From: Cyanobium sp. CH-040
GTDB lineage: Bacteria; Cyanobacteriota; Cyanobacteriia; PCC-6307; Cyanobiaceae
DNA: 64,000 nucleotides
NCBI RefSeq assembly: GCF_024346135.1
Contig: NZ_JAGQCJ010000001.1
Span: forward strand, 372,001 to 436,000
Reading direction: 5' to 3'
Position 1 is the stretch's first letter; each line of letters begins with the position of its first letter. This document shows positions 42,513 to 49,196 of this stretch, one piece after another. The translations under genes were made by a program, and so were the position numbers. The notes beneath the pieces are model-generated. The model ran no database searches. It was not told the origin of the DNA and was given only the letters and a program-made list of their open reading frames with translations.

Positions 42513-42884
42513 ATGTTCAAGACCGTTCTGTTCCCCATCGACCGCAGCCGCCAGGCCATGGACACCGCCGCCGTGGCCCTGCAGCTCGTGCAGGAGCACG
42601 GCAGCCGCCTGGTGCTGCTCTCGGTGGTGGAGCCCGGTGACGACGAGCCGGCCGTGGCCCAGCTGCTGGAGCAGGCGCGCGGCAGCTTCCAGCAGGCCGG
42701 CGTGACCTGTGAGGTGATCGAGCGGGAGGGCAAGGCGGCCTTCGTGATCGGCGATGTGGCCGACGAGATCGACGCGGACGTGATCGTGATGGGCACCCGC
42801 GGCATCACCCTCGAGAGCGACCAGGAGAGCACCGCCGCCCGGGTGATCCAGCTGGCGCCCTGTCCGGTGCTGGTGGTGCCCTGA
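42513..42884 (+). CDS. Universal stress protein, UspA family
   Basis: 123 residues. Standard Usp fold: FKTVLFPID at the start, the VIVMGTRG loop near residue 95 and the ending CPVLVVP. Binds ATP in many members; role in stress or dormancy is inferred. ATG 42513 fits the family; the longer frame starting at 42480 adds unconserved residues. The stop overlaps the next ATG (TGATG), coupling it to the RbgA-like GTPase. Confidence 0.88.
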
Positions 42885-43819
42885 TGGCGGCGCCCATGCC
42901 GGCGGTGAACCTGCCGCAGCTGAGCGTCAACGCCCCGGCGATCCAGTGGTATCCGGGCCACATCGCCAAGGCGGAGAAGGCCCTGCAGGAGGCCCTGGCC
43001 AAGGTGGACCTGGTGATCGAGGTGCGCGACGCCCGCATCCCGCTGGCCACCGGTCACCCGCGGCTGCGGCGCTGGATCGGCAACCGGCAGCACCTGCTGG
43101 TGCTCAACCGCCGCGACATGGTGCCGGCCGCGGCGCAGCAGGCCTGGGATGCCTGGTTCCGCGGCCAGGGCCAGCCGATCTGGTGGTGCGACGCCAAGGC
43201 CGGCACCGGCGTGAAGCAGCTGCAGCAGGCGGCGATCCGGGCCGGCGAGGCCCTCAACGCGCGGCGCCGGACCCGGGGCATGCGGCCACGGCCGGTGCGG
43301 GCGCTGATGCTGGGCTTCCCGAATGTGGGCAAGTCGGCCCTGATCAACCGGCTGGTGCGCCAGAAGGTGGTGGAGAGCGCCCGCCGCGCCGGCGTCACCC
43401 GCAGCCTGCGCTGGGTGCGGCTGGGCCAGGAGCTCGACCTGCTCGATGCCCCAGGCGTGCTGCCGCCCCGGCTGGACGACCAGCAGGCCGCCCTGCGCCT
43501 GGCCCTCTGCGATGACATCGGCCAGGCCGCCTACGACAGTGAAGCGGTGGCCGTGGCCTTCCTTCAGCTCATCGCCAGCCTGGAACCGCTCACCGCCGCC
43601 GGTGTGCCCGCCGGCCTGCTGGAGCGCCGCTACGGCATCCCCGTGGCCCCGCTGCCCGCCGGCGGCCCCGATGGAGAGGGCTGGCTGGCGGCCGCCGCCG
43701 AGCGGCACACCAGCGGCGACCTGGGGCGGATGGCCACCAAGCTGCTCGACGACTTCCGCTGCAGCCGCCTCGGCGCCATCGCCCTGGAGCTGCCGCCGCC
43801 CTCCCCAGCTGCCGCCTGA
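42884..43819 (+). CDS. Ribosome biogenesis GTPase, YlqF/RbgA type
   Basis: 311 residues, circularly permuted GTPase. Motifs appear in the order G4 (N-R-R-D), G5, G1 (GFPNVGKS) and G3 (DAPGVLPP), the hallmark of RbgA/YlqF. It starts with IQWYPGHIAKAEKAL, also typical. It assists late assembly of the 50S ribosomal subunit. Coupled upstream to the Usp gene by TGATG and followed by the RluD-like gene; a translation-related pair. Confidence 0.9.
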   Translation: MAAPMPAVNLPQLSVNAPAIQWYPGHIAKAEKALQEALAKVDLVIEVRDARIPLATGHPRLRRWIGNRQHLLVLNRRDMVPAAAQQAWDAWFRGQGQPIWWCDAKAGTGVKQLQQAAIRAGEALNARRRTRGMRPRPVRALMLGFPNVGKSALINRLVRQKVVESARRAGVTRSLRWVRLGQELDLLDAPGVLPPRLDDQQAALRLALCDDIGQAAYDSEAVAVAFLQLIASLEPLTAAGVPAGLLERRYGIPVAPLPAGGPDGEGWLAAAAERHTSGDLGRMATKLLDDFRCSRLGAIALELPPPSPAAA

Positions 43820-43842
43820 GCCCGGCTCGTACGGTCGACGCC

Positions 43843-45093
43843 ATGGACAAGGGCACAACGCCGATCCGGCCCGGCTTCGCCGAAGGCGAGGGCGAGCTGC
43901 TGACGCTCACCTATCCCAAGCCGCTGCCGATGCGGCTGGACCGCTGGCTGGTGTCCCAGCGTCCCGACCAGAGCCGCGCCCGCATCCAGAAGTTCATCGA
44001 TGCCGGCTATGTGCGCGTGAACGGCATCACCGGTCGGGCCAAGACCCCCCTGCGCCACGGCGACACGGTGGAGCTGTGGATGCCGCCGCCTGAGCCCCTG
44101 CCGTACCTGATGGCCCAGGCGATGCCGCTGGATGTGCTGTTCGAGGACGAGCATCTGATCGTGCTCAACAAGCCCGCCGGCCTCACCGTGCACCCGGCTC
44201 CCGGCAACAGGGACGGCACCCTGGTGAACGGCCTGCTGCACCACTGCCCCGACCTGCCCGGCATCGGCGGTGAGCTGCGGCCCGGCATCGTGCACCGGCT
44301 CGACAAGGACACCACCGGCTGCATCGTCGTGGCCAAGAGCCAGGAGGCGCTGGTGCGGCTGCAGGCGCAGATCCAGCAGCGCATCGCCAGCCGCGACTAC
44401 CTGGCGGTGGTGCACGGCCAGCCGGCGGCCGATGCGGGCACGATCGTGGGCGCCATCGGCCGCCATCCCGCCGACCGCAAGAAGTATGCGGTGGTGAACG
44501 ATGCCAGCGGCCGCCATGCCTGCACCCACTGGCAGGTGGTGGAACGCCTGGGCGACCACGCCCTGCTGCGCTTCAAGCTCGACACCGGCCGCACCCACCA
44601 GATCCGGGTGCACTGCGCCCACATGAACCACCCGATCGTGGGCGATCCGGTGTATTCCCGCTGTCGCCGGTTGCCCCTGGAGCTGCCGGGCCAGGCCCTG
44701 CACGCCGTGCAGCTGGGGCTGAACCACCCGATCAGCGGCGAGCGGCTGGTGTTCGAGGCCCCCCTGCCGCCGGTGTTCGAAAAGCTGCTGGCGCTGCTGC
44801 GCCGCCGCACCCAGACTGGCTCCGCCTTTCCTCCCACGGCGCTTTCCATGGCGGAGCAGAACCTGCGGGCCTTCATCGCTGCGGTGCAGCAGGACCAGAC
44901 CCTGCAGCAGCAGCTCGCCACCACGGCCGCCGCCGATGCCGACGAGGTGGCGAGCATCGCCCGCGGCGCCGGCTTCGAGGTGCTCCCCAACGACCTGGTG
45001 CGCTTCGGCGATGGAGCCCTGGTGGACTACGAGGACGAGGACTACTTCATGAAACCGCTCTGGTGGACCCTGCCCGGCTCAGCAGCCGGCTGA
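43843..45093 (+). CDS. RluD-family 23S rRNA pseudouridine synthase fused in frame to a C-terminal Nif11 domain
   Basis: 416 residues. S4 RNA-binding domain at about 28-80; RluA-type catalytic domain at about 95-330 with GIVHRLDKDTTG (catalytic D154) and the TGRTHQIRVH block, so it should modify 23S rRNA uridines. From residue 336 the chain continues, without a stop, into an 80-residue Nif11-like domain (MAEQNLRAFIAAVQQD..., then ADEVASIARGAGFEVLPNDL) ending in an acidic YEDEDYF-containing tail. Nif11 domains usually occur as free small proteins or as leader regions of natural-product precursors. The ATG at 44848 could start a separate Nif11 protein. The synthase part is secure; the fused product is inferred. 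Confidence 0.88.
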   Translation: MDKGTTPIRPGFAEGEGELLTLTYPKPLPMRLDRWLVSQRPDQSRARIQKFIDAGYVRVNGITGRAKTPLRHGDTVELWMPPPEPLPYLMAQAMPLDVLFEDEHLIVLNKPAGLTVHPAPGNRDGTLVNGLLHHCPDLPGIGGELRPGIVHRLDKDTTGCIVVAKSQEALVRLQAQIQQRIASRDYLAVVHGQPAADAGTIVGAIGRHPADRKKYAVVNDASGRHACTHWQVVERLGDHALLRFKLDTGRTHQIRVHCAHMNHPIVGDPVYSRCRRLPLELPGQALHAVQLGLNHPISGERLVFEAPLPPVFEKLLALLRRRTQTGSAFPPTALSMAEQNLRAFIAAVQQDQTLQQQLATTAAADADEVASIARGAGFEVLPNDLVRFGDGALVDYEDEDYFMKPLWWTLPGSAAG

Positions 45094-45102
45094 GTCCCAC
45101 GG

Positions 45103-46704
45103 TCACACCAGCGCCGGCAGCCGCGGACAGGCCTCCACCAGCTGGCGGGTGATCGCCGCCTGCGGGTTGCTGAGCAGCGCCGATCCGGGGCCCTCCTCCA
45201 CGATCCGGCCCCCGTCCAGCACGATCACGCGGTGGCAGAAGCCGCCGGCCACCGCCAGGTCGTGGGTCACGAACAGCATCCCCAGCCCCAGGCGGGTCTG
45301 CAGATCGCGCAGCAGCTCCAGCACCTCCGCCTGCACCTCGGCGTCGAGCATGCTCACGCTTTCGTCACAGAGCAGCACCTTCGGCTCCAGGATCAGCGCC
45401 CGGGCGATCGCCACCCGCTGCTGCTGGCCGCCGGAGAGCTGGCGGGGCAGGCGGTTCTCGAAGGCCTCGGGCGGGTTCAGCCCCACCGCCGCCAGCAGCT
45501 CGCGGGCGCGCTGGCGGGCGGCGGCGCGGCCGGCCAGGCCGTGGATCAGCAGCGGATCGGCGATCGCCTCGCCCACCCGCATCTGGGGGTTCAGGCAGGC
45601 CAGCGGGTCCTGGAACACCATCTGGATGCCGCGCCGGGCCCGGCGCAGGCTGGCGCCGCGCAGCCGCTGCAGATCCACCCCCTCCAGGCGCACGGCGCCG
45701 CCCCGCACCGGCGCCAGGCCCATCAGCGCCCGGCAGAGGGTGCTCTTGCCGCAGCCGGAGGCGCCCACCAGGCCGATGGTCTCGCCCTGCTGCAGCCGCA
45801 GGCTGACGCCGTCCACCGCCTTCAGCCAACGGCGCTGCCAGGGCAGGCCCGGCAGCGCATGCCAGCAGCGCAGCGCCTCGATCTCCAGCAGCAGCGGCGC
45901 CGCGGCCGGGGCCTGACTCTCGCTGCCCTCGCGTTCGCGCGCCTTGGCCACCAGCCGCCGGGCCAGGGGCGATTGCGGTGCCGTGAGCAGCTGCCGGGCC
46001 GGGGCGCGCTCGATCAGGCGGCCCTCATCGAGCACGGCGATCTGGTCGCACCAGCGCCCCGCCATGGCCAGGTCGTGGCTGATCAGCAGCAGGGCGCTGC
46101 CGGCTTCGCGGCACAGGCCGGTGAGTTCGGCCATCACCTGGCCGGCCACCGCCACATCCAGGCTGGTGGTGGGCTCATCGGCGATCACCAGCGGCGGGTT
46201 GAGGGCCATGGCCAGGGCGATCGCCAGCCGCTGGCGCATGCCGCCGCTGAATTCGTGGGGATAGCTGCCGTAGCGGTCCACGCCGATGCCCACCCGCCCC
46301 AGCAGCTCCTCGGCCCGCCGGCGCAGCTGCCGCCGGGTCCAGCCGGGGCGGTGGGCCCGCAGGGTGTCGGCCAGGTGGCCGCCGATGGTGAGCAGCGGGT
46401 TGAGCCGCGTCATCGGGTCCTGGAACACCAGGCCCACCGCCTCGCCGCGCAGGCGGCGCAGGGCCGGCCGGCGCAGGGCCCGGGGATCGCGGCCCGCCAG
46501 CAGCAGCTCGCCGTCGCAGCGGCTGCCGGCGGGCAGCAGCTGCAGCACGGCGCGCGCCACCGTGCTCTTGCCGCAGCCCGAGGGTCCCACCAGCGCCAGC
46601 GTCTCGCCGGGATCGAGGCTGAGATCGAGGCCGTCGAGGGTGGGGCGCTCGCTCTGGGGATAGGCCACCCGCAGCTGGTGCAGGCGGAGCACGGGGTCCG
46701 TCAT
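45103..46704 (-). CDS. ABC transporter ATP-binding protein with two ATPase domains (peptide/nickel DppD-DppF-like)
   Basis: 533 residues with two complete ABC ATPase domains: the first has Walker A GPSGCGKST at about 40-48, signature FSGGMRQRLAIA and Walker B VIADEPTT; the second has Walker A GASGCGKST near 325, signature LSGGQQQRVAIA and LLCDESVS. This layout is usual for peptide/nickel transporters with both NBDs fused. No permease or binding-protein gene is adjacent, so the transported compound is unknown. ATG 46704 is the natural start; upstream codons lack homology. It converges with the RluD-Nif11 gene nine bases away. Confidence 0.85.
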   Translation of the reverse strand: MTDPVLRLHQLRVAYPQSERPTLDGLDLSLDPGETLALVGPSGCGKSTVARAVLQLLPAGSRCDGELLLAGRDPRALRRPALRRLRGEAVGLVFQDPMTRLNPLLTIGGHLADTLRAHRPGWTRRQLRRRAEELLGRVGIGVDRYGSYPHEFSGGMRQRLAIALAMALNPPLVIADEPTTSLDVAVAGQVMAELTGLCREAGSALLLISHDLAMAGRWCDQIAVLDEGRLIERAPARQLLTAPQSPLARRLVAKAREREGSESQAPAAAPLLLEIEALRCWHALPGLPWQRRWLKAVDGVSLRLQQGETIGLVGASGCGKSTLCRALMGLAPVRGGAVRLEGVDLQRLRGASLRRARRGIQMVFQDPLACLNPQMRVGEAIADPLLIHGLAGRAAARQRARELLAAVGLNPPEAFENRLPRQLSGGQQQRVAIARALILEPKVLLCDESVSMLDAEVQAEVLELLRDLQTRLGLGMLFVTHDLAVAGGFCHRVIVLDGGRIVEEGPGSALLSNPQAAITRQLVEACPRLPALV

Positions 46705-46793
46705 GGGTGACGCGGCCCGCGGCGAGGGCGGCGGCGGACTGGTGCGATGGACAACGGCCGGTGCGCAATCACCCCCGAGTGTCGCTGCCTGCA

Positions 46794-46799
46794 TACGAT
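46794..46799 (+). promoter_or_regulatory. Possible -10 element upstream of the Rel/Spo gene
   Basis: TACGAT (matching TATAAT at four of six positions) sits 21 bases before the chosen ATG at 46821, in the 116-base gap to the divergent ABC gene. No good -35 hexamer. Start choice also depends on it: ATG 46821 rather than the longer frame. Confidence 0.3.
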
Positions 46800-46820
46800 G
46801 AGGCCACTCCGCAGGACCCC

Positions 46821-49196
<2,376 letters not shown>

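Follow-up and report, generated by a model that had tools for sequence, protein, structure and literature searches.

An rluD-type reading frame that continues into a Nif11-like domain in Cyanobium and some related Cyanobiaceae

Introduction

Why does an open reading frame for an RluD-type pseudouridine synthase run on, without a stop, into a Nif11-like domain? Could this indicate a single fused protein, or do two genes share one frame by accident? Passages of a 2010 paper describe Nif11 proteins as a group with unassigned function, part of which serve as natural-product leaders; pseudouridine is not mentioned in the main text of that paper (PMC2887384). Literature searches gave no report of a fusion among the matches listed; the one paper listed for Nif11 with RluD was a Bradyrhizobium RpoN study.

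The locus lies in Cyanobium sp. CH-040, in a window of 64,000 nucleotides (the whole stretch of DNA that was analysed). A sequence-only reading of this window had offered two interpretations of the frame: a real fusion that arose when an intergenic stop was lost, or a separate small Nif11 protein that starts at an internal ATG. We set out to decide between these and further explanations by comparing the locus with its relatives across the family.

Results

One open frame with two recognizable parts

Positions 43843-45093 on the forward strand form a single open frame of 416 codons, with the sole stop at its very end. The features discussed below are the following.

42884..43819, + strand: ribosome biogenesis GTPase YlqF (TIGR03596, 285.8 bits versus 208.2), 23 nt upstream of rluD
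43843..45093, + strand: rluD-nif11 fused open reading frame, 416 aa
43930..44070, + strand: S4 RNA-binding domain, residues 30-76 (Pfam PF01479)
44152..44622, + strand: PseudoU_synth_2, pseudouridine synthase catalytic domain, residues 104-260 (Pfam PF00849)
within 44284-44319, + strand: HRLDK motif, placed by sequence position
44809..44847, + strand: linker of 13 codons (16 and 20 in two relatives), with low GC3 and changes mainly at codon position 3
44812..44817, + strand: CAGACT element, conserved, separated from the internal ATG by 30 nt
44848..44850, + strand: internal ATG, kept in all 16 fused genes; in two unfused relatives it begins the separate gene
44848..45006, + strand: Nif11 domain, residues 336-388 (PF07862, TIGR03798, predicted helices)
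45025..45066, + strand: acidic-aromatic C-terminal motif DYEDEDYFMKPLWW, conserved and overlapping a predicted beta hairpin
45103..46878, - strand: double ABC transporter ATPase, convergent (sequence match)

The protein passes the RluA-subfamily model rluA_subfam TIGR00005 of NCBIfam (291.7 bits, cut-off 192.7). Among the equivalog models listed, that for RluD scores highest, with 251 bits against a cut-off of 351. Residues 25-321 align with RluD, the 23S rRNA pseudouridine(1911/1915/1917) synthase (PDB 1qyu, 1v9f, 7bl5), and both share the S4 and the catalytic domain. The HRLD motif is present within GIVHRLDKDTTG, residues 148-159 of the fused protein; its HRLDK stretch we take to be the site of the catalytic aspartate. 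The only full-length RluD match in this genome is the fused gene, so the likely RluD of this strain carries a tethered Nif11 domain. A 381-aa frame elsewhere in the genome contains two weaker RluD-matching pieces of 36-40% identity and is presumably another RluA-type enzyme.

The C-terminal part is recognized by both Nif11 models. In the whole protein, Pfam PF07862 matches residues 336-383 (E 3.6e-12, 46.8 bits, cut-off 23.8), and TIGR03798 (leader_Nif11) matches residues 336-388 with 40.2 bits, above its curated cut-off of 32.3. The tail alone reaches 50.4 bits with PF07862, for which the gathering cut-off is likewise 23.8, and 44.6 bits with TIGR03798. The sequence-only reading had thus correctly seen an RluD frame that stays open into a Nif11 domain, had placed the internal ATG accurately at 44848, and had described an acidic, aromatic tail; the end YEDEDYF.KP.WW is indeed largely conserved among fused tails. 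Two more Nif11 matches occur elsewhere in the genome. At locus L003 (G000:C10:36165-36329) a Nif11 domain opens a 204-residue frame whose C-terminal part looks cupin-like; NCBIfam includes a nif11_cupin family.

Downstream of the fusion, a gene for a RelA/SpoT protein lies beyond the convergent ABC ATPase gene. In some loci that have no nif11 (G010, G021 and G280 are examples) some 50 nt at the 3' end of the convergent ABC gene are shared with the rluD frame.

A tail that resembles, and departs from, Nif11 leaders

Modelled alone, the tail is predicted to form a helical domain followed by a C-terminal hairpin (mean pLDDT 83); the model of the whole protein is poor (mean pLDDT 56.9), which leaves docking and contacts between the domains unreadable. 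Fold comparisons of the tail gave a best Foldseek E-value of 2.6; in a second comparison the Z-scores did not exceed 4.5, and Fur, DtxR or MYST proteins made up several of the rows. Comparison with 9zn4, the NMR structure of the MppE leader, gave a Z-score of 3.5 and an rmsd of 4.1 over 61 aligned residues. All these values are too weak to use. By sequence the tail does match the chain of 9zn4 (E 1.8e-4), and its first ~50 residues are those that match the Nif11 leader models PF07862 and TIGR03798.

The differences from these leaders lie in position and ending: the tail is found at the C-terminus of an enzyme, and a conserved acidic-aromatic end takes the place of the double-glycine site and core. 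The tails show no double-glycine cleavage site with a core peptide behind it and no variable core, and that of the query has no Cys-rich core. Prochlorosin leaders, according to a passage of PMC10783134, carry a D/EELExxxGG motif and are followed by non-conserved cores, whereas the tail described here has a conserved end. Similar, too, are the standalone tail-type Nif11 proteins of genus g57 (L084, L086, L087, L089 and L092), which are of like length and have a like end, DT-F-LKPSWW. These are free genes elsewhere in the genome; their loci lack an HRLDK frame, and the 120 nt upstream of the genes do not contain CAGACT. The neighbourhood of the free g57 gene is constant across the five loci examined, with what we take to be a short-chain dehydrogenase and, on the opposite strand, a Fur-like regulator nearby.

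Fused, adjacent and absent states among relatives

How widespread is the junction? A profile built from six tails and run on 400 genomes of the family Cyanobiaceae finds a match in 321 of them at E <= 0.001. Fused tails score above 130 bits, about a dozen places lie between 56 and 109, and other Nif11 proteins reach at most 50. The search scored up to 14 first-look candidates per genome; when the own genus, g10, g68 and g70 were searched again with every candidate scored, the fused set was unchanged. A full tail in frame with RluD occurs in 16 of the 400 genomes, distributed over three genera: 6 of 13 genomes in the own genus, 7 of 25 in g10 and 3 of 16 in g68. Among 291 genomes of the class, no tail match at E <= 1e-9 fell outside the family; the sample is thin, with G000 as the sole fused genome showing in it. 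A mobile origin of the tail was considered and rejected, no match being found at E <= 1e-3 in phage or plasmid collections.

The rluD loci themselves were read in a sample of 80 genomes. Five had no RluD match (G303, G276, G139, G188 and G093), two were left out as fragments (G258 and G315), and of 72 rluD loci retrieved 71 were read; G226, with a 333-aa frame and no tail, stands outside this count. The 71 loci comprise 16 fused genes, 2 with an adjacent and separate nif11, and 53 that show no tail-type nif11 within the stretch examined, which extended less than 800 nt downstream of rluD at L132, L126, L127 and L142. In the 53 loci without nif11, rluD mostly stops within ~15 codons past the LRRR end, a few later, whereas in the fused genes a linker and a Nif11 domain are added at this point.

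Two relatives display the unfused arrangement. In G081 (Cyanobium sp. C1_MAG_00004) a separate nif11 lies in the rluD frame, with one in-frame TGA between the two; in G120 nif11 follows rluD directly in a different frame, and the rluD stop overlaps the final base of CAGACT. G139 and G188 carry nif11 at the start of a contig, the rluD side being missing. At G081 (L143/L081) a cupin-like frame sits between the separate nif11 and the convergent ABC gene, and its signature peptide was found at none of the other loci among the 71. Locus L145 (G158) has rluD without nif11 but with an extended C-terminus, and CAGACT 20 nt before the stop; this may be the scar of a lost nif11, or chance.

The linker evolves like translated sequence

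Is the linker between the domains translated? None of the 16 fused genes has a stop in it. This is weak evidence for coding, because in 495 of 600 neutral simulations at the rate of four-fold sites no stop arose in any of the 16 tips either. Linker length varies between 13, 16 and 20 codons without loss of the frame, the differences of 9 and 21 nt being multiples of three; as the events are few, this is no more than suggestive of translation. Clearer is the distribution of changes over codon positions, which we assessed by permutation for the last 13 linker codons only, the two longer linkers included, using a tree built with the codons of core and tail. In all 16 genes, positions 1, 2 and 3 carry 27, 22 and 50 changes (p 0.0031). 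The counts are 3, 3 and 18 in g10 (p 0.0010), 12, 13 and 21 in g1, the own genus (p 0.041), and 3, 2 and 3 in g68, which is not significant (p 0.55). An earlier and noisier tree gave 33, 23 and 51 for all genes (p 0.0097; 0.0094 with the CAGACTG codons removed), with p 0.0009 for g10 and 0.55 for g68; the signal in g1 depends on the tree (p 0.13 there versus 0.041). In the g10 linkers, 8 of the 13 third-position columns vary, compared with 4 of the 26 columns of the first two positions (Fisher p 0.0054). Since the linker lies 5' of the internal ATG, this position-3 pattern argues for translation through the junction, and from the pattern of substitutions the linker appears to be translated.

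With its low GC3 and its conserved CAGACT, the linker is nonetheless unlike plain coding DNA. In the 16 fused genes taken together, GC3 is 149/218 (0.68) in the linker versus 3781/4333 (0.87) in the core codons examined, in line with the sequence-only reading, to which the stretch before the ATG had looked less coding-like. In the 13 genes of equal core length the last 13 linker codons have an average GC3 of 0.716, the lowest of 258 core windows being 0.769; in the three g68 genes the value is 0.462, the lowest of 257 core windows being 0.564. Residues 305-334 have a pLDDT below 50 in the predicted model, and we infer that the linker is flexible.

A conserved element upstream of the internal ATG

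The hexamer CAGACT is found in 13 of the 16 fused linkers, with CAAACT in two others and CAGAGT in one. Its ACT triplet accounts for just 4 of 226 threonine codons in core and tail of the 16 genes, yet occurs in 15 of the 16 linkers, and among 133 four-fold columns there is none with T or A retained in 15 rows or more. The separate nif11 genes have the element too, each time in another codon register: 30 nt upstream of the ATG in G120, and 28 nt upstream, after the rluD stop, in G081. The remaining spacer sequence of these two is ~30% identical to the fused linkers. Together with the low GC3 of the linker and the somewhat weak structure described next, these findings suggest that CAGACT was once part of the free nif11 gene; it may be a remnant, or a cis element that is still live.

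In each of 18 genes, the RNA around the ATG is predicted to be less structured than the median window, a mild effect, as 21% of windows are on average equally weak. The own genome has 11 copies of CAGACTG that are followed by an ATG at a distance of 26-31 nt, and none of the mirror-image control pattern. At ten of these loci that were examined, the frames span 8-49 codons, except for the query with 81 codons, a second frame with 130 and a third that a contig end truncates. CAGACT could be a genome-wide promoter word, as the contrast of 11 to 0 would suggest, yet few of the CAGACTG-ATG matches head long frames. The frame of 130 codons is at L172 (G000:C2:88292-88332), where the ATG stands 30 nt on from CAGACT as at the query; presumably it encodes a protein like the glycine cleavage H protein, and the spacing may be due to chance or to a shared element. 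A scan of 43500-45400 found no sigma-70-like promoter, and inspection by eye of fused and unfused genes found no consistent Shine-Dalgarno-like sequence before the internal ATG.

History of the fused state

A quick tree of the RluD core together with YlqF (71 rows, YlqF missing for 6 of them) needs six changes to account for the fused state, two of which are forced by strong branches. In this tree the fused g10 genomes form one group (support 89) and those of g68 another (99), and the own genus is mixed. Because six changes are needed, a single fusion with simple descent does not fit. The tail tree joins G081, G120, G139 and G188 (83/58) and places the fused rows in several unresolved groups, with no single clade. 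One fusion followed by losses or by exchange between lineages fits these trees, as other histories may. The nearest outgroup tails are free genes elsewhere in the genome, and for this reason the unfused state is probably the older one. The likely origin is a merger of neighbouring genes through loss of a stop; the lost intergenic stop that the sequence-only reading had proposed agrees with G081 and G120, which keep rluD and nif11 separate.

Discussion

Do alternative explanations account for the junction equally well? A sequencing or assembly error that removed a stop, an explanation to which the TGA between the domains of G081 might lend some credit, has a negligible chance of being right and was rejected: 16 assemblies share the junction, G006, G098 and G165 carry it on single chromosome-sized contigs, and G003 (Synechococcus sp. 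GFB01) is fused too. A relative with a stop between the domains, which the sequence-only reading had held to point to such an error, thus exists in G081; because 16 assemblies share the open junction, we read this stop as the unfused state and not as a sign of an error at the query. That the tail is a precursor of a ribosomally synthesized natural product (RiPP) carried by RluD seems highly improbable, even though the tail exceeds the cut-off of TIGR03798, a model named after RiPP leaders; the lack of a double-glycine motif and of a variable core and the conserved C-terminal motif speak against it, as does the result that a LanC-like enzyme (LANC_like), the only RiPP enzyme type searched, has no match in the genome. 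Only slightly more credible, and still very unlikely, is the idea that the frame is open by chance, RluD ending in some other way and Nif11 being made from 44848 as a separate product. The linker is set apart from the other parts of the gene by its composition, at which a frame would be expected to stay open by chance, and unfused relatives do exist; on the other hand, with no stop after RluD in 16 genomes translation should run on, and both the codon-position periodicity of the linker and its length differences in multiples of three speak against separate products.

More serious is the proposal that two products are made, the fused protein and a free Nif11 of 81 residues that starts from the ATG at 44848 by a promoter or initiation signal of its own. 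We regard this as unlikely, but as the foremost of the alternatives. It would account for an internal ATG kept in every fused gene, for CAGACT at a similar distance from the ATG in G120 and G081 within otherwise dissimilar spacers, for the rare ACT codon in nearly all linkers where no four-fold column compares, for RNA structure at the ATG below the median throughout, and for the spacing of CAGACTG and ATG in excess of its mirror control. Against it are the missing sigma-70-like promoter and Shine-Dalgarno-like sequence, the scarcity of frames above 50 codons among the ten CAGACTG-ATG loci (the query and one other, with one that runs off its contig), the CAGAGT variant in one fused gene, and the mildness of the structural effect. 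In its more specific form, a nested gene in which the free Nif11 is under the control of a CAGACT element older than the fusion, the proposal is a shade more doubtful still. Were it true, the free Nif11 copy could compete with or regulate the enzyme to which Nif11 is tethered.

The explanation we favour, and hold to be probable, is a genuine fusion gene in which a separate nif11 behind rluD was merged with it by loss of the stop, so that the tail is a tethered accessory domain and not a RiPP leader. The sequence-only reading had looked to related genomes for the same junction, and its presence in 16 of the 400 family genomes and in three genera, with linker lengths differing by multiples of three and changes concentrated at position 3, supports the real-fusion interpretation. 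An ancestor would have had a separate nif11 gene directly behind rluD; the rluD stop would then have been lost and the spacer brought into frame, giving a single protein. The predicted product consists of RluD, a flexible linker of ~13-20 residues, and a Nif11 domain with a conserved acidic-aromatic end, which may serve the enzyme as an accessory module that binds a protein partner or the maturing 50S particle. With RluD and YlqF as neighbours, the simplest guess for its role is an accessory one in 50S modification or assembly. What we observe is the open frame, its domains, the junction shared by relatives, other relatives in the unfused state, and a linker whose pattern of change is that of translated DNA; we infer from these the order of events, expression as a single protein, the flexibility of the linker and the role of the domain.

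What does this mean for the biology of the family? With a Nif11 domain attached to the likely RluD, and the gene of a ribosome-assembly GTPase just upstream, the locus offers a starting point for testing a function of Nif11 in ribosome assembly or rRNA modification. The patchy pattern among close relatives, in which nif11 is variously fused, adjacent or absent, constitutes a natural experiment on how gene fusions form and on whether old start signals persist.
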